Virus record (IMG/VR): IMGVR_UViG_3300048033_000284
Span: 1-31,715 of that record
Length of the DNA stretch: 31,715 nt
Source of the DNA: a virus
Strand: one strand, 5' to 3'
Both the position numbers and the translations under genes were made by a program. Below are positions 4,360 to 24,206 of the stretch, piece after piece (positions within the stretch are counted from its first letter, which is position 1; every line of letters starts with the position of its first letter). The notes beneath the pieces were generated by a model, which searched no databases, was not told the DNA's origin, and saw only the letters and a list, made by a program, of their open reading frames with translations.

Positions 4360-4367
4360 TAAATTTG
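4360..4367 (+). promoter_or_regulatory. -7 box TAAATTTG directly before tape measure start
   Basis: TAAATTTG begins right after the GT stop codon and ends 4 bases before the tape measure ATG. If used, transcription would begin at or next to the ATG, giving a leaderless mRNA. The 12 bases TTTGCATTATGG are identical to those before the prohead protease gene (22116-22127). No clear -33 TTG was found. Confidence 0.5.
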
Positions 4368-4371
4368 CATT

Positions 4372-6747
4372 ATGGCAAATATATTAGAAGTAATTTTAAA
4401 AGGGGACGCTAAACACTTAAATAGCTCCCTAGGTAAAGCAAGTAGAAATCTAAAGAGTTTTGGTAAAAGAGTTAGTTCTCTAGGGTCTTCACTACAAACT
4501 AGATTAGCGCTGCCTTTAGTCGCAGCTGGTGGAGCGTCCATAAAAATGGCTGCGGACTTTGACAAGTCAATGACGCAAATTAAGACGCTTGTAGGCGTTG
4601 CTGGCACCACAGTTGACCAAATGAGCGTTAGCGTAAAAAGACTAGCTACTGAGGCTGGTATAAGCTCTGGAGAAGCGGCAGACGCGCTCTTTTTTATTAC
4701 TTCAGCTGGTCTAAGAGGTGCTGAGGCTATGGCTGTATTAGAACAGTCAACAAAAGCAGCCGCGGTCGGATTAGGAGAAACTAAAGTTATTGCTGATTTA
4801 GCGACCTCAGCTCTTAACGCTTATGGCGTAGAAAACCTATCAGCTAGTCAAGCGACTGACGTACTTACTGGCGCTGTAAGAGAAGGTAAACTATCAGCCG
4901 ACACCTTAGCCCAGTCAATGGGTACAGTTTTACCAGTAGCCTCTCAGTTAGGCGTAGAGTTTAGCGAGGTGGGTGCTACATTTGCTGCAATGAGTAGGAC
5001 TGGTACAGACGCCGCAATGGCAGCTACTCAGATTAGAGGTATATTATTTTCTTTATTAAAACCGTCAAAACAAGCTAGCGACACTTTAGCAGAGTTTGGG
5101 TTAAGCGCTGAAGGACTTAGAAGGCAAATAAAAGAAGAGGGCTTACTATCAACTCTTAAAACATTAACTACAACCTTTGGAGATAATGAAGAGGCTCAAG
5201 GTAGAGTATTTGCAAATACTAGAGCTTTGTCTGGAGTCTTAGACTTAATGGGTAAAAACCTAGGCTCTACTGAGCAAATATTTAAGTCTATGAACAATAC
5301 AGCTGGCATAACCCAAAAAGCATTTGACCAGTTGGGAGACTCAGCCGAGTTTAAACTTAGAAAAGGTTTAATAGAATTAAAAAACCAATTTACTGATTTA
5401 GGCGGTATTTTAATGGAAAGCCTTTTACCAGTTCTAACAGATGCCATAGGATTTGCCTCTAAATTATTTAAAGCCTTTGGTAAATTAGACCCAGTAGTAC
5501 AGCAATTAACAATAGGCTTCGCTGCTTTTGCAGCGGTATTGCCTACCATTCTAACAGTTGGAGGCGCTTTGCTTACTTTATTAGGCTCTTTGAGTCTTCC
5601 AATAGTAGCTGTAGGCGCAGCTATAGCTGGATTAATTATTTACTTTGATGAAATAGCTAACGCCTTTGTATTATTTAAAAACGCTGTAAAGTTTAACGTA
5701 TTAGCTGTTTTAATTAAAATAGATGAATACATACAAAAATACTTAATAAGACCTTTAAAGGCGGCTGGTAGGTTTCTAAATGAGTTTATTGAAGAAGGTT
5801 TTAGCGGAGACTTTGGCGGCATAATGGATGATTTTTTTGCTGAAGGTGAAGAAATATCTAAAAAAGCTGGTAAACAAATAGCTGAAAATTTTGTAGACCA
5901 ATGGAAACAAAATAGCGAAGAAAGGTTTGAAGGTACTATTGATAAATTAATTAGTAAAGTTCAGAACAAATTTTCTGGCATTTTATCTGGCGTAGGTATA
6001 AAAACGCCTAAAGTATCAGCTCCAGAAATAGAAACACCTAAAGGCGAACAAGACCTAGGTAGTATTTTTGCAATACAAGGCAATCCTTTTGACGAGGCTG
6101 GTAAAGGTGTAGAAGACTTTGCAAAAAAATCTACTACAAGTTTTGCAGCTATCAGTTCATCTATTAAAGAAAATACAGCTCGTTTTTATGAAATGAACGA
6201 GGCGAGAGAGCAAACGCAACAAAGACTTAGCGACCTAGCACAAGTTGTAGGGGGTCAATTAATGGGCGCTTTTAGTTCTTTAGGAGACACTATAGTTACG
6301 TCTATGGGCTTAGGAGAAGGTGCGCTAGGAAGTTTTGCTGGAGCTTTTATAACCGCTGCAATGGATGCTATAGCCGCATCATTAGCCGTTGCTACAGCCG
6401 CTGCAATTAAAGGAGCTGCGGAGGGTTCTTTTTTAGCAGGACCTTTAGCGCCTATTGTATTACCAGCATTGATAGCTGGAGGCGTAGCAATTGTAAAATC
6501 AGCTTTTTCCTCTAACGTACCTAAATTTGCAAACGGTGGTATTGTATCAGCGCCAACTTTAGGATTAATGGGAGAATATGCTGGAGCTAGAAGTAATCCA
6601 GAAGTAATAGCGCCATTAGATAAATTAAAAGGTATGATAGGACAAAGAGAAACCGCTGTAAATGTAACTGGAGGGTTTAGGCTAGAGGGTCAAGATTTAG
6701 TTATGGCTTTACAAAGAGCTGACAGAAACCGTTCAAGACTATTATAA
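4372..6747 (+). CDS. Tail tape measure protein
   Basis: A 791-residue protein that sets tail length and is expelled on infection. The N-terminus has the TP901 tape-measure signature: LNSSLGKASRNLKSFGKRV, AADFDKSMTQIKTLVGV, EAGISSGEAADALFFITSAG, AASQLG-like PVASQLGVEFSEVGATFAAM, and TDAAMAATQIRGIL. Hydrophobic segments lie at ~380-425 and ~640-705. The C-terminus carries FANGGIVSAPTLGLMGEYAG followed by PEVIAPLDKL, typical of tape measure C-termini. It is the longest gene in the window, directly behind the G/GT pair. By the usual ~1.5 angstrom per residue rule the tail would be on the order of 120 nm (inference). Confidence 0.92.
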   Translation: MANILEVILKGDAKHLNSSLGKASRNLKSFGKRVSSLGSSLQTRLALPLVAAGGASIKMAADFDKSMTQIKTLVGVAGTTVDQMSVSVKRLATEAGISSGEAADALFFITSAGLRGAEAMAVLEQSTKAAAVGLGETKVIADLATSALNAYGVENLSASQATDVLTGAVREGKLSADTLAQSMGTVLPVASQLGVEFSEVGATFAAMSRTGTDAAMAATQIRGILFSLLKPSKQASDTLAEFGLSAEGLRRQIKEEGLLSTLKTLTTTFGDNEEAQGRVFANTRALSGVLDLMGKNLGSTEQIFKSMNNTAGITQKAFDQLGDSAEFKLRKGLIELKNQFTDLGGILMESLLPVLTDAIGFASKLFKAFGKLDPVVQQLTIGFAAFAAVLPTILTVGGALLTLLGSLSLPIVAVGAAIAGLIIYFDEIANAFVLFKNAVKFNVLAVLIKIDEYIQKYLIRPLKAAGRFLNEFIEEGFSGDFGGIMDDFFAEGEEISKKAGKQIAENFVDQWKQNSEERFEGTIDKLISKVQNKFSGILSGVGIKTPKVSAPEIETPKGEQDLGSIFAIQGNPFDEAGKGVEDFAKKSTTSFAAISSSIKENTARFYEMNEAREQTQQRLSDLAQVVGGQLMGAFSSLGDTIVTSMGLGEGALGSFAGAFITAAMDAIAASLAVATAAAIKGAAEGSFLAGPLAPIVLPALIAGGVAIVKSAFSSNVPKFANGGIVSAPTLGLMGEYAGARSNPEVIAPLDKLKGMIGQRETAVNVTGGFRLEGQDLVMALQRADRNRSRLL

Positions 6748-9660: not shown

Positions 9661-9667
9661 CACTATA

Positions 9668-9885
9668 ATTAACAACAAAAACTATCATGAAAGCAATGCA
9701 AAGAGATTTAGATACATTCGTAAGATTACTATCACAAGGTAAATATACTAACAAAGAAGCTAGATTAAGATTTAGAAGTCTATGTGACTTTTACCCTTTA
9801 GATTTCGATACTAGATTTAGAGTAGAAAATCTAATAAAAGACTTTACAGTAAAGTTTTAATCTAATAATCATTAACAACAAAAAC
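9668..9885 (+). repeat. Repeated leader element ATTAACAACAAAAAC
   Basis: The 15-mer occurs exactly at 9668-9682 and 9871-9885, each shortly before an ATG (9687 and 9893). A two-mismatch relative, ATTAACAATCAAAAC, lies at 24179-24193 before the gene at 24207. It is probably a translation-enhancing A-rich leader in a host that does not use Shine-Dalgarno pairing, or a regulator site. The coordinates span both copies. Confidence 0.5.
9687..9860 (+). CDS. Small early protein (57 aa), unknown
   Basis: First gene after the early promoter, 57 residues. It is charged and helical, with MKAMQRDLDTFVRLLSQGKY, TNKEARLRFRSLCDFYPLDF and DTRFRVENLIKDF. No family recognised. A dedicated promoter and a conserved A-rich leader make it a real gene; first-expressed small phage proteins are often host-takeover factors (inference). 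Confidence 0.65.
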   Translation: MKAMQRDLDTFVRLLSQGKYTNKEARLRFRSLCDFYPLDFDTRFRVENLIKDFTVKF

Positions 9886-10256: not shown

Positions 10257-10481
10257 ATGACAGAAAACGTAAAAGAAATATTTAACCAAGAACTCAAGCG
10301 CTTAAATCTAAAGCGTTATGAGGTAGCAAAAGAGCTAGGTATTAGTTACCCATCTTTAAAGTCTAAAATAGACAATCCAGATAGGTTTACCTATAGAGAA
10401 ATAAAAAAGCTAGCAGAGCTAGAAATTAATTTACAACTAGAACTATATTATGACACCAGATTTATCGAAAAAGATGTTTAA
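10257..10481 (+). CDS. HTH DNA-binding protein
   Basis: A 74-residue protein with a helix-turn-helix at residues ~15-45 (RYEVAKELGISYPSLKSKID, then RFTYREIKKLAELEI). This is Cro/XRE-like or a plasmid-type small HTH fold. It sits immediately upstream of, and overlaps by 32 bp, the ERF-like gene. It is probably a regulator of early genes. It lacks the dimerisation domain of a CI-type repressor, so it is not evidence for lysogeny. Confidence 0.7.
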   Translation: MTENVKEIFNQELKRLNLKRYEVAKELGISYPSLKSKIDNPDRFTYREIKKLAELEINLQLELYYDTRFIEKDV

Positions 10482-10878
10482 CGTCTTTTGTAAAGTAGAC
10501 GCTTATAGAAAGGATAAGAAAAACCCTTTTTTTAATAGCAGCTATGCAGACATTAACGTAATCATTAAAGTATTAAAACCAATCTTAATAGCTGAGAAAT
10601 TATACTTTACTCAACCAATTATTAAGAATAAAGTTTATACTATTATTCACGACGCTGAGAGCGAGGCTGAATATCCAGCAAAAGATGAAAGGGAAGGCAT
10701 AGAAATACAATCTATAAAACCTCAAGAGCGAGGCTCAGAGATTACCTTTTACAGACGTTACGGCTTAGTTTCATTATTTGGACTTGAGGCTGAAGACGAC
10801 GACGCTAACCAAACAGTTAGCCGCAAACCTAATAACACAATCAAACCAATTAATAACCCTAATAATTTTGAATTATGA
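10450..10878 (+). CDS. ERF-family single-strand annealing protein
   Basis: A 142-residue protein. The ERF signature is visible: NPFFNSSYADINVIIKVLKP (residues 25-44), IAEKLYFTQPI, and GSEITFYRRYGLVSLFGLEA followed by EDDDAN (95-120). ERF proteins bind ssDNA and anneal complementary strands in phage recombination and genome circularisation. It is shorter than many ERF proteins (often ~200 residues). The Asn/Pro-rich C-terminus (~123-142) looks disordered. The ATG at 10450 overlaps the HTH gene; an alternative ATG at 10474 would shorten the protein by 8 residues. It pairs with the RecE-like nuclease at 11394. Confidence 0.85.
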   Translation: MTPDLSKKMFNVFCKVDAYRKDKKNPFFNSSYADINVIIKVLKPILIAEKLYFTQPIIKNKVYTIIHDAESEAEYPAKDEREGIEIQSIKPQERGSEITFYRRYGLVSLFGLEAEDDDANQTVSRKPNNTIKPINNPNNFEL

Positions 10879-11123
10879 GTACATACGAACAAAAACCAAA
10901 CTCCTTTAGTCTATTTAAAAACGAGCAAAAGACTGAAGACAAACAGCCAGACTATTCTGGTACAATGACAGACGCTAGCGGCAAGCAGTTTAGAGTATCC
11001 GCTTGGGTTAATACAGCTAAATCAACTGGTAAAAATTATCTAGGCGGTCTTATTTCTGAGATGCAACCAGCCCAAACTAAACCAGTACAAGCTCCAGAAG
11101 AGTCTAATGATTTACCTTTTTAA
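10875..11123 (+). CDS. SSB-like small protein with acidic LPF tip
   Basis: An 82-residue protein overlapping the annealing protein by 4 bp. The core has short strands (YSGTMTDASGKQFRVSAWVN, KNYLGGLISEM), then a Pro/Gln-rich linker and the terminus EESNDLPF. This resembles the C-terminal tip of bacterial SSB (DDDIPF), which recruits replication and repair partners. The core is too short for a full canonical SSB OB fold, so it may be a minimal OB protein or an ssDNA accessory factor. Its position inside the recombination block supports the role. Confidence 0.6.
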   Translation: MSTYEQKPNSFSLFKNEQKTEDKQPDYSGTMTDASGKQFRVSAWVNTAKSTGKNYLGGLISEMQPAQTKPVQAPEESNDLPF

Positions 11124-11170: not shown

Positions 11171-11410
11171 ATGGCAAACGAAAATATTATAATTGACGAA
11201 ACAAAAGAAAACAGTCTAGAGTTTTTAGAGGCGTCTACTATGTTTTTAAAAGGCAAAGTTTACGACTTACAAAAACAATTAAAAAAAGCTGAAGAAAGTT
11301 TAACTATAGCTGAGGCTACTGCAAACTATAACAAGAAAAAGCTAGACAGCTGGAAAAATAAATATTACAATCTAATCAACCAAAATAAAAGAAATGAAAA
11401 AAGTATTTGA
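11171..11410 (+). CDS. Coiled-coil protein (79 aa), unknown
   Basis: A 79-residue, highly charged and mostly helical protein: EFLEASTMFLKGKVYDLQKQ, LKKAEESLTIAEATANYNKK, KLDSWKNKYYNLINQNKRNE. It overlaps the nuclease gene by 17 bp, which suggests translational coupling and perhaps a partnership. No family recognised. Confidence 0.6.
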   Translation: MANENIIIDETKENSLEFLEASTMFLKGKVYDLQKQLKKAEESLTIAEATANYNKKKLDSWKNKYYNLINQNKRNEKSI

Positions 11411-12152
11411 CACCAACGCTAAGTATCATTCAAGTAGTGATATATCCGCCTCTGGTTTAAAAACTATATATAGCCAGTCTGTATATTATTTTTTAAATCA
11501 AAAGCCTTTTGAAAGCGACGCAATGAAATTTGGCACAGCGGTACATACGCTACTTTATGAAGGTCGTGAAGAGTTTAAAAGGCAGTATTATGTTATGCCT
11601 AAGTTAGATTTAAGGCTCAAGAAAAATAAAGAAGCTAAAAAAGTGTATTTAAAGCATGCTGGGGATAAAATACTTATAGACTCAGAACAAAGAGACAATC
11701 TATTTACAATCCTATCGCATTTTGAAGATAATAAAATAGCTATGCACTACGGTAAAGGATTTGTAGAACAGTCTCACTATTTAGATTTTGAAGGAATTCC
11801 AGTTAGAGTTCGCCCAGATTGCCATAGTGATAGTTGGATTTCAGACATTAAAACTTCAAAAGATATAAGTATAAGGGCGTTTAGAAGTGAAATAAACTTT
11901 AGAAATTACGACTTACAAGCTGCTTTTTATTGCGACTGTTTAGGTTATGACCCTTTTAGTTTTAGATTTATAGCTATTAGAAACGTTCACCCTTTTGACG
12001 TTGCTGTTTATGCTTTAAATGAAGACCAAATAGAGAGAGGTCGTTTTAAATATAAGCACGCTCTCAGACAATGGAAACATTACCTCGACGGTGAAGGTGT
12101 TCTAGGAATATACAGCGACAATACTAATAAAGACGGTTCTATAATATTATGA
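11394..12152 (+). CDS. RecE/exonuclease VIII-like PD-(D/E)XK nuclease
   Basis: A 252-residue protein. Motifs of the RecE-like/DUF3799 exonuclease family are in order: SDISASGLKTIYSQSVYYFL (residues 15-34), MKFGTAVHTLLYEG with H51, RVRPDCHSDSWISDIKTSKD with the catalytic D142, D151 and K153, and YDLQAAFY (Q175, Y179). It would resect dsDNA ends 5' to 3' to give substrate for the ERF-like annealing protein, a two-component recombination system. It starts inside the preceding coiled-coil gene. Confidence 0.85.
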   Translation: MKKVFDTNAKYHSSSDISASGLKTIYSQSVYYFLNQKPFESDAMKFGTAVHTLLYEGREEFKRQYYVMPKLDLRLKKNKEAKKVYLKHAGDKILIDSEQRDNLFTILSHFEDNKIAMHYGKGFVEQSHYLDFEGIPVRVRPDCHSDSWISDIKTSKDISIRAFRSEINFRNYDLQAAFYCDCLGYDPFSFRFIAIRNVHPFDVAVYALNEDQIERGRFKYKHALRQWKHYLDGEGVLGIYSDNTNKDGSIIL

Positions 12153-12814
12153 TAACACTAAAGCCAATACATATAAGAAAATTAGTTGAGTCTGAAACAG
12201 GAGCTAAAATTAACGTAAGGTCAAGGCGTAGGGAATTAGTAGAGGCTCGCCATATTTACTGCTTAATTTTAAAAAAACATTCTCGATATACTTTAGACGC
12301 AATAGGCAAAGAAATAGACAGAGACCATACTAGCGTTTTACATTCTCTAAGACGAGCTAAAGAATTTTTGCAATATGACCAAGATTTTAAAGACAAATTT
12401 TATAACTTAGAAAATAAATTTTTTCACTTGAGCGCAAATAACTTTGAGAGGTATTTAGGAAAAGAAGATAAACTTCAAAATGCTGTAATGACTTACTTAG
12501 AAATGCAGCACCCTAACAACCTTGTTATCCACGTTCCTAATGAGGGTCGTAGAACACCTTTTGAGCGTTATAAGTTTAAATATTTAGGCGGTAAGGCTGG
12601 AGTCCCAGACATTCTCTGCTTTACGCCTAGAGGTGGTTATTGTGGTTTAGCGATAGAATTAAAAGTAGGTTATAACAAACCAACGGAAAGCCAGACAGAG
12701 TGCCTAGAAAAATTAGAAGATTCTAACTGGAGCGTCCACTGGTGCAATTCTTTTGATAAAGCCAAAGCAATTATCGATAACTATTTTGATAAAAGAATAG
12801 ATTTGAATGTATAG
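12149..12814 (+). CDS. DnaA domain IV-like / VRR-NUC fusion nuclease
   Basis: A 221-residue two-domain protein. Residues ~22-75 match the DnaA duplex-DNA-binding domain: RSRRRELVEARHIYCLILKK, LDAIGKEI, then the DnaA signature-like RDHTSVLHSLRRA (58-70). Residues ~104-212 match VRR-NUC: E106/Q110 helix, PNEGRRTPFERYKFKYLGGK, GVPDILCF (D154), LAIELKVG (E170, K172) and ESQTECLEKLE (Q182). There is no AAA+ ATPase domain. It could be an origin- or structure-directed endonuclease starting or resolving replication, or a nuclease attacking host origins. Both domains are known; I do not know this combination as a described protein. It overlaps the RecE-like gene by 4 bp. Confidence 0.82.
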   Translation: MITLKPIHIRKLVESETGAKINVRSRRRELVEARHIYCLILKKHSRYTLDAIGKEIDRDHTSVLHSLRRAKEFLQYDQDFKDKFYNLENKFFHLSANNFERYLGKEDKLQNAVMTYLEMQHPNNLVIHVPNEGRRTPFERYKFKYLGGKAGVPDILCFTPRGGYCGLAIELKVGYNKPTESQTECLEKLEDSNWSVHWCNSFDKAKAIIDNYFDKRIDLNV

Positions 12815-13061
12815 CAACTATAAGAAAGTTTTTTATAATGAGACTAGCCAAAAGGTCTGGCGCACTAATACAACTGCTTTAGAGCAAGACGTTAATTATG
12901 AGTATATAGGTACTATGACTTTAGCAGAATATGACTTACTAATAGAAACGCTGTTCGAGCTTTATGAAAATAATGAAATTTCACTAGAGGCATTTTCTAG
13001 AATATTTGGCGACATTCGTACCTTTTGCGACCATATAAAAAACTTAGTAGACAACTCTTAA
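12807..13061 (+). CDS. Hypothetical protein (84 aa)
   Basis: An 84-residue acidic protein overlapping the fusion nuclease gene by 8 bp and ending 3 bp before the HTH replication gene. The N-terminus is beta-like (YKKVFYNETSQKVWRTNTTA), followed by helices (LAEYDLLIETLFELYENNEI, SRIFGDIRTFCDHIKNLVDN). No family recognised. The location inside the replication operon suggests a small replication accessory protein. Confidence 0.6.
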   Translation: MYSNYKKVFYNETSQKVWRTNTTALEQDVNYEYIGTMTLAEYDLLIETLFELYENNEISLEAFSRIFGDIRTFCDHIKNLVDNS

Positions 13062-13064
13062 AAA

Positions 13065-13733
13065 ATGAAACCAAACTATTACGCTATCTTACCAGCTGAG
13101 GTAAGGTACTCAGAAGACCTAGCTCCAAACTCAAAGCTCCTTTACGCAGAAATAAGCGCTCTAACAAATAAGAGCGGTAAATGTTTTGCTCAAAACTCAT
13201 ATTTTGCTGAGTTATATAATGTAGAAAAAGAGACTGTAAGTAGATGGATTTCACAGCTTGAAAAATTTGGATTTATAAAAACCAAAGTTATTAGAAATAA
13301 AAATAAGCAAGTTGAAAAGCGCTACATTTTTGTCAATACCTCCCTTATAAAAAATCAATACCCTATTGATAAAAAAGTCAAGGATAATATATATACTAAT
13401 AATAATAATATAAATAATAATAGTACCTACGCTTTTAGCGAACAAGTTTTAAAGTCTTATAATTATATAGTGCCATTATTTCCAGAGCGCAATAGACCAA
13501 AAAACGAACAACAAAAAAAGCAATGGCTAGACGTTATAAGATTATGCAATAGTGAAGACAAAGTAAATCCTAGACAGTTATATTATTTACTAGAAAAGGT
13601 TAGAAAGGATGAATTTTGGGCTGACAACTTTTTATCTTTAATTAGTTTAAGAAAATCTAAAAACGGCGTTAGAAAGCTAGATAGGTTTTTACAAAAGTTT
13701 GCCGATAAAGATTTTAATGATATTACAAAATGA
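13065..13733 (+). CDS. HTH replication initiator/replisome organiser-like protein
   Basis: A 222-residue protein. Residues ~1-92 are a winged-helix domain of the HTH_36 type used by phage replication initiators (YYAILPAEVRYSEDLAPNSK, LLYAEISALTNKSGKCFAQN, VEKETVSRWISQLEKFGFIK). An Asn-rich linker (~111-121) comes from an AAT/ATA simple repeat at about 13387-13425. The C-terminal part (residues ~130-222: PRQLYYLLEKVRKDEFWADN, LDRFLQKFADKDF) resembles the helical end of DnaD-like or phage O-type proteins. It probably binds the phage origin and loads the helicase encoded at 14119. Confidence 0.7.
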   Translation: MKPNYYAILPAEVRYSEDLAPNSKLLYAEISALTNKSGKCFAQNSYFAELYNVEKETVSRWISQLEKFGFIKTKVIRNKNKQVEKRYIFVNTSLIKNQYPIDKKVKDNIYTNNNNINNNSTYAFSEQVLKSYNYIVPLFPERNRPKNEQQKKQWLDVIRLCNSEDKVNPRQLYYLLEKVRKDEFWADNFLSLISLRKSKNGVRKLDRFLQKFADKDFNDITK

Positions 13734-14122
13734 TAAAGCACGAAAAAAGAATAAAGCAAGTTTTAGATTTTAGAGGCGTGGGTAATTCTAAAATTCACCC
13801 TACAGATATAGACGCTGTTTTAGAGTTTGATAACAAGTACTTAATTCTATTTGAAATAAAACTAAAAGGCGTGCCTAATTCTATAGGTCAAGAGTTAGTA
13901 CTAAAAAGAATTGTAGACTGTTGGGAAAAAACCAACGGCAATGCTTTTGTAATATATTGCGAGCATAATACAGACCCTAATGATGTAGTTACAATGCAAA
14001 ACACAACAGTTAATAGAATATATTCTGGAGGCGTTAATTATAAAAGAAACGAAAATCTAAAAGAATGTTTAACTAAATTAGCCGACCACTATAAAATAAC
14101 CAAACTAAAAAACTCCTTATGA
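13730..14122 (+). CDS. Resolvase-like PD-(D/E)XK nuclease
   Basis: A 130-residue protein with a compact nuclease core. HPTDIDAVLEFDNKYLILFE followed by IK matches the pattern PTDID-x(n)-(F)E-x-K (residues ~23-44); K44 is the presumed catalytic lysine. The rest (VLKRIVDCWEKTNGNAFVIY) is compatible with the same fold. Holliday-junction or recombination nucleases of this size are common next to helicase-primase genes in phages. It overlaps both neighbours by 4 bp (ATGA-type junctions). Substrate is inferred. Confidence 0.65.
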   Translation: MIKHEKRIKQVLDFRGVGNSKIHPTDIDAVLEFDNKYLILFEIKLKGVPNSIGQELVLKRIVDCWEKTNGNAFVIYCEHNTDPNDVVTMQNTTVNRIYSGGVNYKRNENLKECLTKLADHYKITKLKNSL

Positions 14123-15792
14123 TACAAGACTTCTTAGCATTAGGAATAGAAGTAAAATCCAATGCGAACAACCAAAAACTAAAATGCCCAAAATGCTCTC
14201 ACCAGAGAAAAAACAAACAAGACCGCTGTCTTAGTGTAAACTTACAAGAGGGCTTATATAATTGTCACCATTGCGGCTGGGGAGGTAATGTAAAATTCAA
14301 ACCAAAAAAAGAATATGTAAAGCCAGTTGTAATTAAATCTGAATTAGGAGACAGAACCCTAGGCTGGTTTAATAAAAGAGGTATATCTGAGGCTACCGTA
14401 GTAAATTGGAAAATTACAGAAAGCCAAGAGTTTTTTCCTCAGATTTCTAAAAACCGTAAAGCTATAAACTTTAACTACTATAGAAATGGCGAACTAATAA
14501 ACGTAAAATACAGAGATGCTGAAAAGAATTTTAAGTTAGTCTCTGGTGCTGAACTTATTTTTTACGGACTCGACAATATAAAAGATAGCAGTAGAGCTTA
14601 TATAGTTGAGGGCGAAATGGATGCCTTAAGTTTATTTGAGGCTGGCATTTATTCAGTAGTATCAGTTCCTAATGGAGCGTCTAAAGGCAATCAGCGCCTT
14701 GACTATTTAGACAACTGCTATAGTTACTTTGAAGACAAAAAAGAAATAATACTATGTACTGATAATGACGATGCTGGACTTAATTTAAGAAATGAATTAG
14801 CTAGACGTCTTGGAAAGTATCGCTGTAAGTATGTTGAATTTAGCGAATATAAGGACGCTAACGAGGTTTTAATTAAAAAAGGTGCAGAGACACTACGAAC
14901 AATTTTAAAAGGCTCTAAGACGTTCCCTTTGGATGGAGTAATAAATATTAATGATATTTGGGAAAATGTTTTACTATATAATGAAAAAGGAATTAAAAAT
15001 TTCTCAATCGGTCTTAGCGACTCTGATAATTATTTTAATGTTTCTTTTGGTGAGTGGTCTGTTGTTACTGGCATACCCAATGCTGGTAAGTCTGATGTCT
15101 TTGACCAAATTGCTGTCAATCTAGCTCTTACTAAAGGCTTTAGAACTGCTTTCTTTGCTCCAGAGTCGTTTCCTTATGAAGGTCATATTAAACGTATAGC
15201 TAACAAATTAAATAAAAAAAACTGCTCTAATGAAGACCTCAACAATACAAAGGACTTTATAGAAGACCATTTTTATTTTATAAAGATTGACCTAGAAAAC
15301 TTAACTCTTAAGTCTATACTAGATAAATTTAAAGAGCTTGTATTTCAAAAAGGCGTTAATATATTAGTTATCGACCCTTGGAATATGTTAGACCATTCAG
15401 CACAAAAAGACCATAGTTATATAGGCGCTATGCTTTCTCAAATAACTCAGTTTGTACAGCAAACCAATACGCATTTATTTCTTATAGCACACCCTAGAAA
15501 AATGGAAGTAAACGGTGAGGCTTATAAAGTGCCAACGCCATACGATATATCTGGCTCTAGTGATTTCTTTAATAAAGCCTACAACTGCCTAACCATATAT
15601 AGAAAGTTAGGCGAAATAACAAAGTTTGGGACTGACGCTGTTGAGGTTCACGTACAAAAAGTTAAGCGCAAAGAGAATGGACAGCAAGGCTCTTTTATGA
15701 TAGCTCCAGACTTTAATAATGGCGGATACTATTGTTCTGTAAATAAAGAAAAACAAAGACTAACTAGTATTAACGATAAACTACCTTTTTAA
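14119..15792 (+). CDS. Primase-helicase (T7 gp4/Twinkle-like)
   Basis: A 557-residue protein with three modules. A zinc ribbon has C23-C26 and C49-C52 (LKCPKCSHQR, YNCHHCGWGG). The TOPRIM fold (~158-255) has YIVEGEMDAL with E164 and LCTDNDDAG with D215/D217. A RecA-like hexameric helicase has Walker A GIPNAGKSD (318-326), Walker B ILVIDPW (415-421) and LFLIAHPRKM. It would unwind the replication fork and make primers. The protein ends INDKLPF, like the LPF tip of the SSB-like protein at 10875. No polymerase is visible in the window, so host polymerase III is presumably recruited. Confidence 0.92.
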   Translation: MIQDFLALGIEVKSNANNQKLKCPKCSHQRKNKQDRCLSVNLQEGLYNCHHCGWGGNVKFKPKKEYVKPVVIKSELGDRTLGWFNKRGISEATVVNWKITESQEFFPQISKNRKAINFNYYRNGELINVKYRDAEKNFKLVSGAELIFYGLDNIKDSSRAYIVEGEMDALSLFEAGIYSVVSVPNGASKGNQRLDYLDNCYSYFEDKKEIILCTDNDDAGLNLRNELARRLGKYRCKYVEFSEYKDANEVLIKKGAETLRTILKGSKTFPLDGVININDIWENVLLYNEKGIKNFSIGLSDSDNYFNVSFGEWSVVTGIPNAGKSDVFDQIAVNLALTKGFRTAFFAPESFPYEGHIKRIANKLNKKNCSNEDLNNTKDFIEDHFYFIKIDLENLTLKSILDKFKELVFQKGVNILVIDPWNMLDHSAQKDHSYIGAMLSQITQFVQQTNTHLFLIAHPRKMEVNGEAYKVPTPYDISGSSDFFNKAYNCLTIYRKLGEITKFGTDAVEVHVQKVKRKENGQQGSFMIAPDFNNGGYYCSVNKEKQRLTSINDKLPF

Positions 15793-22111: not shown

Positions 22112-22119
22112 TATCTTTG
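22091..22119 (+). promoter_or_regulatory. Promoter TTTG-N17-TATCTTTG before prohead protease
   Basis: TTTG (22091-22094) and TATCTTTG (22112-22119) are 17 bases apart, within the range for Bacteroidetes promoters. The box ends 4 bases before the ATG at 22124, so the transcript would be leaderless. TTTGCATTATGG is shared with the tape measure start region (4364-4375). Confidence 0.6.
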
Positions 22120-22123
22120 CATT

Positions 22124-22813
22124 ATGGAAACAATTTTATATAAACAAGCGCCTATAGGCGAACTCCTAGACGCTGATGAAAAAGCTGGAGTAGTCAAGGG
22201 CTATGCTAGTGTATTTGATAATAAAGACTCAGATAATGATATTATAAGAAAAGGCTCTTATAGAAAAACCATTACAGAAAATGGTCAAAGAGTAAAATAC
22301 TTATACCAGCACGATATGGACAAACCTCTAGGCAAAATGACAATGCTAGAGGAAGACGACAAAGGTTTAGTATTCGAGGCTAAAATAGCTAAGACTACTT
22401 TAGGTAACGACGTTATCGAACTAATTAAAGCTGGAGTTATTACAGAAAACTCAGTAGGTATTTTACCTATTCAAAAAGATATGGTCGACGGTGTTAGAAA
22501 TATTACAGAGGTTAAACTTTATGAAGTTTCAGCTGTAACTCTAGCCGCAAACGACCAAGCGCTTATTATGGACGTAAAAGGGAACTATGACCCTAACAAA
22601 GTACTTAAGCGCTACGATAATATGGCAAAACTTATTCGTAAGGGGAATATCTCAGACGACTTAGGTTATGCCCTAGAAGCTGAAATACTTAAACTAAAAT
22701 CACTATTTGCTAAATTATCTACTCAGCCAACCGATATAGAGGTTACTGAGCCAGTTGAGGTAAAGAATGAGGTTAGTGAGATGTATCAATATTTGTTTAA
22801 TAAATTAAAATAA
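22124..22813 (+). CDS. Prohead protease, HK97 family (U35)
   Basis: A 229-residue serine protease that cleaves scaffold and capsid N-termini. Motifs: VVKGYASVFDNKDSDNDII (residues ~23-41), VKYLYQHDMDKPLGKM with catalytic H63, AGVITENSVGILP with S110, and VKLYEVSAVTLAANDQALI (~130-148). The C-terminal ~70 residues are charged and probably a scaffold-like extension. Position between MuF and major capsid genes is the standard order. Confidence 0.92.
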   Translation: METILYKQAPIGELLDADEKAGVVKGYASVFDNKDSDNDIIRKGSYRKTITENGQRVKYLYQHDMDKPLGKMTMLEEDDKGLVFEAKIAKTTLGNDVIELIKAGVITENSVGILPIQKDMVDGVRNITEVKLYEVSAVTLAANDQALIMDVKGNYDPNKVLKRYDNMAKLIRKGNISDDLGYALEAEILKLKSLFAKLSTQPTDIEVTEPVEVKNEVSEMYQYLFNKLK

Positions 22814-24171: not shown

Positions 24172-24206
24172 CATCATAATTAACAATCAAAACTAAAACT
24201 AAAATT

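Follow-up and report, generated by a model that had tools for sequence, protein, structure and literature searches.

A DnaA domain IV-like domain and a VRR-NUC nuclease paired as one protein or two neighbouring genes in a group of phages

Architecture of the fused protein

Why would a phage join the DNA-binding domain of DnaA to a nuclease, and is the resulting protein genuine? The DNA analysed here (the window) is one strand of 31,715 nucleotides, positions 1–31,715 of the IMG/VR record IMGVR_UViG_3300048033_000284. A preliminary description of it had proposed that a single 221-residue protein combines a DnaA domain IV-like domain with a complete VRR-NUC core, has no AAA+ domain, and is guided to replication origins. 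The gene and its parts are as follows.

12149–12814, + strand: fused DnaA_C–VRR-NUC protein, 221 aa (open reading frame and translation with an ATG start; two Pfam domains above the cut-off; 30 fused homologues in viral contigs)
12203–12355, + strand: DnaA domain IV-like (Bac_DnaA_C) domain, residues 19–69 (Pfam E 3.7e-11; sequence and fold matches to 1J1V and 3PVP)
12320–12358, + strand: DnaA signature helix RDHTSVLHSLRRA, residues 58–70, starting at the equivalent of E. coli position 432 (alignment to E. coli domain IV)
12380–12457, + strand: helical linker and start of the nuclease region, residues 78–103 (AlphaFold2 secondary structure; junctions of the split genes)
12458–12790, + strand: VRR-NUC nuclease domain, residues 104–214, with active-site residues E106, D154, E170, K172 and Q182 (Pfam; invariant columns; fold match to 4QBL)

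The Pfam search located Bac_DnaA_C (PF08299) at residues 19–69 (43.3 bits, E 3.7e-11; curated cut-off 31.5) and VRR_NUC (PF08774) at residues 109–202 (32.3 bits, E 1.1e-7; curated cut-off 23.8). When the PDB was searched by sequence, the N-terminal half matched domain IV of E. coli DnaA (1J1V, E 6.1e-5) and the C-terminal half a solved VRR-Nuc enzyme (4QBL, E 2.5e-8). AlphaFold2 was run with an alignment of 24 homologues as input, giving five models. The mean pLDDT was 88 and the pTM 0.56, the latter value indicating that the placement of the two halves relative to each other is uncertain. Foldseek searches with the predicted model retrieved two structures of the DNA-binding domain of DnaA (3PVP and 1J1V, TM 0.90 and 0.86 by target) as well as 4QBL (TM 0.76 by target). 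Thus, Pfam, the PDB sequence matches and the predicted folds agree on the proposed fusion. The absence of an AAA+ domain was likewise borne out: the DnaA model TIGR00362 was matched at positions 365–436 of 437 only, and since this is the C-terminal end of the model, the fused protein is not a DnaA initiator.

The catalytic core named in the preliminary description (D154, E170, K172 and Q182) was found to be invariant across 24 distinct fused homologues, as was E106, and the PD-(D/E)XK active site is therefore intact in the window's protein.

Fused, split and nuclease-only forms

We scanned viral contigs for relatives and found 348 stretches encoding them, 80 of which were kept for analysis and assigned a form by profile searches over all open reading frames. 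The same fusion was present in 30 of the 80 loci (31 when the window is counted). In 47 others the same two domains were encoded by adjacent genes on one strand, mostly overlapping, and the remaining three had the nuclease without DnaA_C. Both Pfam families were matched by all 24 distinct fused proteins (E 0.01), and the split proteins tested matched their respective families.

In most split loci, the DnaA_C reading frame ends only after the nuclease gene has begun in a different frame, the overlap often being 44–116 nt; in one group the two genes instead lie 27–30 nt apart in the same frame. The gene boundary of the split relatives corresponds to residues 78–103 of the fused protein, where an NPFxKYL motif is conserved. 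An apparent docking motif in the C-terminal tail of the split DnaA_C proteins (KSIRKxFNKRR) was rejected, as it arises where the overlapping nuclease gene's conserved start, NPFEKYLTKED, is read in a shifted frame. Programmed frameshifting that would yield a fusion from split loci was not supported either, because the nuclease reading frame has its own well-placed start codon; judging from the two peptides it encodes, the A run in the overlap is apparently not conserved.

A maximum likelihood tree of the nuclease domain showed that fused and split forms interleave, which implies that fusion or splitting has taken place more than once. Well-supported branches force at least two changes between the forms, and parsimony gives about six, on a short alignment with unresolved deep forks. 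Two of the nuclease-only relatives (L076 and L079) group with fused proteins in one clade and have retained an N-terminus resembling the linker, which suggests that they have lost the DnaA part. The conservation of both forms, together with the interleaved tree, excludes a chance fusion or one made by assembly. The pairing is thus real and is held across many related viruses, as one protein or as two neighbouring genes.

Outside this phage group the pairing was scarce. None of 75 VRR-NUC loci from GTDB genomes encoded the fusion, and only one (L087) had a DnaA_C reading frame near the nuclease, another locus (L088) being cut at a contig edge. L087 is a contig binned with a Candidatus Woesearchaeota MAG; it looks like the split form of the same phage group and is probably a mis-binned phage. 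No fusion was found in 58 genomes from the family to which a Flavobacteriaceae MAG belongs; searches with the N-terminal half there matched mainly chromosomal DnaA. Thus, among the cellular VRR-NUC genes covered, the pairing is all but absent. The best fold match to the predicted model was the viral UniProt entry A0A516L0Z0 (218 aa; 41% identity over 215 columns), so the fused architecture is probably already present in public data. We found no publication describing it in the open-access literature, in keeping with the statement of the preliminary description that such an architecture was not known.

Other phages encode a DnaA domain IV-like protein that, like the present one, is too short for an AAA+ domain. 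The examples found (pelagiphages Skadi-4 and HTVC034P, Flavobacterium phage mumin, Olleya phage Harreka_1 and Cellulophaga phage phi19:3) differ from it in that the stretches examined contained no VRR-NUC gene. Such stand-alone proteins would be expected if the DnaA_C part acted mainly as a regulator, binding DNA to repress or activate the early operon or competing with host DnaA, and were carried along with the nuclease. We regard this as very unlikely, as a regulator would have no need of repeated fusion to, or overlap with, a nuclease gene, and the window has a separate small repressor-like gene at 10257–10481. In Skadi-4 and HTVC034P, the DnaA_C gene lies downstream of nuclease and single-strand annealing genes. 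Its product is annotated as a replication initiation protein and may also be a recombination partner.

Gene neighbourhood and a proposed role in branch cutting

The preliminary description placed the fused gene between a RecE-like exonuclease and an HTH replication protein. The replication and recombination setting was upheld, but a small reading frame intervenes before the HTH gene, as the following list shows.

10450–10878, + strand: ERF-type single-strand annealing protein (PF04404, E 5.6e-19)
10875–11123, + strand: small single-strand DNA-binding protein (phrog_18154, E 3e-9)
11394–12152, + strand: RecE/exonuclease VIII-like PD-(D/E)XK exonuclease (DUF3799, E 4.8e-21; phrog_412, E 9e-52)
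12807–13061, + strand: 84-aa protein, directly downstream of the nuclease in 81/81 loci
13065–13733, + strand: HTH_36 replication initiator or DnaD-like helicase loader (family matches; present in 80/81 loci)
14119–15792, + strand: Toprim-DnaB-like primase/helicase (family matches; locus comparison)

The RecE-like exonuclease gene lies directly upstream of the fused gene with a 4-nt overlap, and this neighbour is kept in 80 of 81 loci. The order RecE-like exonuclease, DnaA_C:VRR-NUC, small reading frame, initiator and primase-helicase was found in essentially every locus of sufficient length among the 81, fused and split loci being equivalent in this respect; an upstream ERF protein was detected in some of the loci. 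The remaining proteins of the window, scanned against PHROG, gave structural, packaging, regulatory and lysis matches together with unknowns, and none of the window's proteins was recognised in these scans as another Holliday junction resolvase. The 84-aa protein gave no convincing match in Pfam, PHROG or NCBIfam; it is a candidate third component.

Among characterised nucleases, psNUC (4QBL) is the nearest. Like two phage VRR-Nuc proteins, it forms a dimer and cuts four-way junctions symmetrically, an activity that in FAN1 is blocked by a helical insertion between beta1 and beta2 (PMC4103454). The alignment of the window's protein to psNUC was gapless over residues 126–172, and no segment extra to psNUC was seen between beta1 and beta2; from this alignment and the fold match to 4QBL, we infer that the FAN1-type insertion is absent. 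The stand-alone enzymes psNUC, stNUC and saNUC resemble the window's protein in fold and sequence, in their intact active site and in their bacterial or phage origin, and differ from it in having no DnaA-like domain. FAN1, which carries other domains (SAP and TPR), shares the nuclease superfamily domain. It is a monomeric 5'-flap enzyme with a helical insertion (PMC4103454).

As psNUC is a dimeric Holliday-junction cutter, the relationship points to structure-specific rather than sequence-specific cutting, and given the RecE-like and ERF recombination genes close by, resolving recombination and replication branches would be its simplest role. We therefore favour, with a probability of roughly 0.55, that the fused protein is a branch-cutting (Holliday-junction-resolving) nuclease of the phage's recombination/replication module, in which the DnaA-type domain serves as a duplex-binding tether. 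The VRR-NUC half, probably as a dimer, would cut the Holliday junctions and similar branches that arise through replication or through the neighbouring exonuclease and annealing protein, allowing separation and packaging of the DNA. As an added duplex-binding module, either non-specific or tuned to lineage-specific sites, the DnaA domain IV-like half would hold the nuclease on the branch arms or at preferred phage sites. In split loci, the DnaA_C and VRR-NUC proteins would probably act in the same complex, since occurrence as fused or adjacent same-strand genes with several switches on the tree is a classical sign of functional partnership. The apparent loss of the DnaA part in two nuclease-only relatives fits an accessory role for it. 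Counting against a branch nuclease, the in vitro activity of stNUC and saNUC was far below that of psNUC (PMC4103454).

If correct, this would mean that a widespread and largely uncultured phage group couples DnaA-type DNA binding to branch cutting, possibly in the form of a site-preferring junction nuclease. The repeated fusion and splitting indicate that the 'DnaA-like' proteins of the group belong with the VRR-NUC nuclease and are not themselves initiators, which offers a testable role for phage DnaA_C proteins, including those annotated as initiation proteins.

Base-reading residues, DnaA boxes and the host

The possibility was also considered that the DnaA-type domain directs the PD-(D/E)XK nuclease, in one protein or two, to specific sites, which may be the phage origin or host DnaA boxes. 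The base contacts of DnaA domain IV are made by E. coli residues 399, 423, 432–435 and 438–439 (PMC5043019). The window's protein is identical to E. coli DnaA at seven of these eight positions (the exception, 423, is D), and R399, R432, D433, H434, T435, L438 and H439 are kept in its clade. In the close relative L003, the contact signature is that of L173, a flavobacterial chromosomal DnaA. Across the family, only positions 399 and 434 (R26 and H60, invariant in the 24 distinct fused homologues) do not vary, and most of the others drift. Conservation is also lower in the DnaA part than in the nuclease (roughly 30–45% versus 60–68% identity to the window in split loci). Thus, the domain resembles DnaA domain IV (1J1V, 3PVP; TM 0.86–0.90 by target) in its fold and, in the window's clade, in most base-reading residues, and differs by its fusion to a nuclease, the absence of AAA+ and domains I–III, the change at 423 and the drift of contacts in the family. 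The conservation of R26 and H60 and the near-DnaA contacts of the window's clade suggest sequence reading over mere tethering and count against the tether.

No exact TTATCCACA (DnaA box) was present in the window, and boxes were not enriched or clustered beyond chance there or in four near-complete relatives. Over 32 dereplicated loci, TTATNCACA was observed 12 times, compared with 13.9 expected from synonymous-codon shuffles. A trinucleotide-based null had suggested depletion in split loci, but for the whole set the effect was gone after dereplication and codon shuffling; in split loci alone, 3 boxes against 9.2 expected is a weak deficit, as 4.7% of control motifs were as low. The phage genomes therefore show neither an origin of canonical boxes nor convincing box avoidance. 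Repeated 11- or 12-mers shared as iteron candidates were absent from the five genomes.

These results bear on the suggestion that the domain recognises sites resembling DnaA boxes in the phage origin, where the nuclease nicks or opens the DNA to start or switch replication. The gene does adjoin initiator and primase-helicase genes, and seven base-contact residues are kept in its clade, but the lack of exact or clustered boxes and of iterons, the drift of the contacts, the absence of the DnaA part from some relatives and the phage's own HTH initiator make this unlikely. It is still less probable that the protein is a weapon brought by its DnaA domain to host DnaA boxes, in oriC or elsewhere, to cut or block host replication. 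The L003 signature and a phage genome devoid of exact boxes would agree with such a function; however, box scarcity equals the codon-shuffled expectation and so does not indicate avoidance, the characterised VRR-Nuc-type nucleases are structure-specific, and the gene's place throughout the family is within the replication operon and not with accessory genes. Guidance to origins, as put forward in the preliminary description, was thus not supported by the box counts or by the family-wide contacts. Cutting directed to a phage or host origin is possible, its positive evidence being the conserved contact residues, and site direction in general appears rather doubtful; if true, it would give a sequence-and-structure-guided nuclease coupling recombination to replication start or host shut-off.

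A DNA-cutting enzyme joined to Bac_DnaA_C has been described before in the TnpA-REP/TIRYT HUH endonucleases (subclass 2.1.2), whose flanking repeats are unlike DnaA boxes (PMC6006769). They are a precedent for a Bac_DnaA_C nuclease with associated repeats other than DnaA boxes. They differ from the branch-cutting nuclease favoured here in being transposon-like, in having an HUH Y1 nuclease rather than PD-(D/E)XK, and in carrying Bac_DnaA_C at the other, C-terminal end.

Within the initiator gene, an AT-rich tract (13388–13423) encodes an Asn-rich linker of a kind that recurs in the initiators of relatives; the gene may, like lambda O, harbour an origin with this tract as its unwinding element.

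The Bacteroidota-type promoter element TANNTTTG was found very close to an ATG at 4360–4374, 10863–10877 and 22112–22126, and the genes concerned are possibly leaderless or short-leader. The element followed closely by ATR, TANNTTTGNANNATR, is over-represented in the window (4 versus 0.57 expected), suggesting that a Bacteroidota host is likely; the hosts are probably marine bacteria. A repeated segment, ATAATTAACAACAAAAAC, and its variants occur just upstream of gene starts at 9665–9682, 9868–9885 and 24176–24193, probably as a shared leader or ribosome-binding region. Two adjacent tail-fibre-like reading frames (202–561 and 572–2434) have diverged repeated segments in common (about 75–83% identity), suggesting a duplication or a cassette for receptor-binding exchange.
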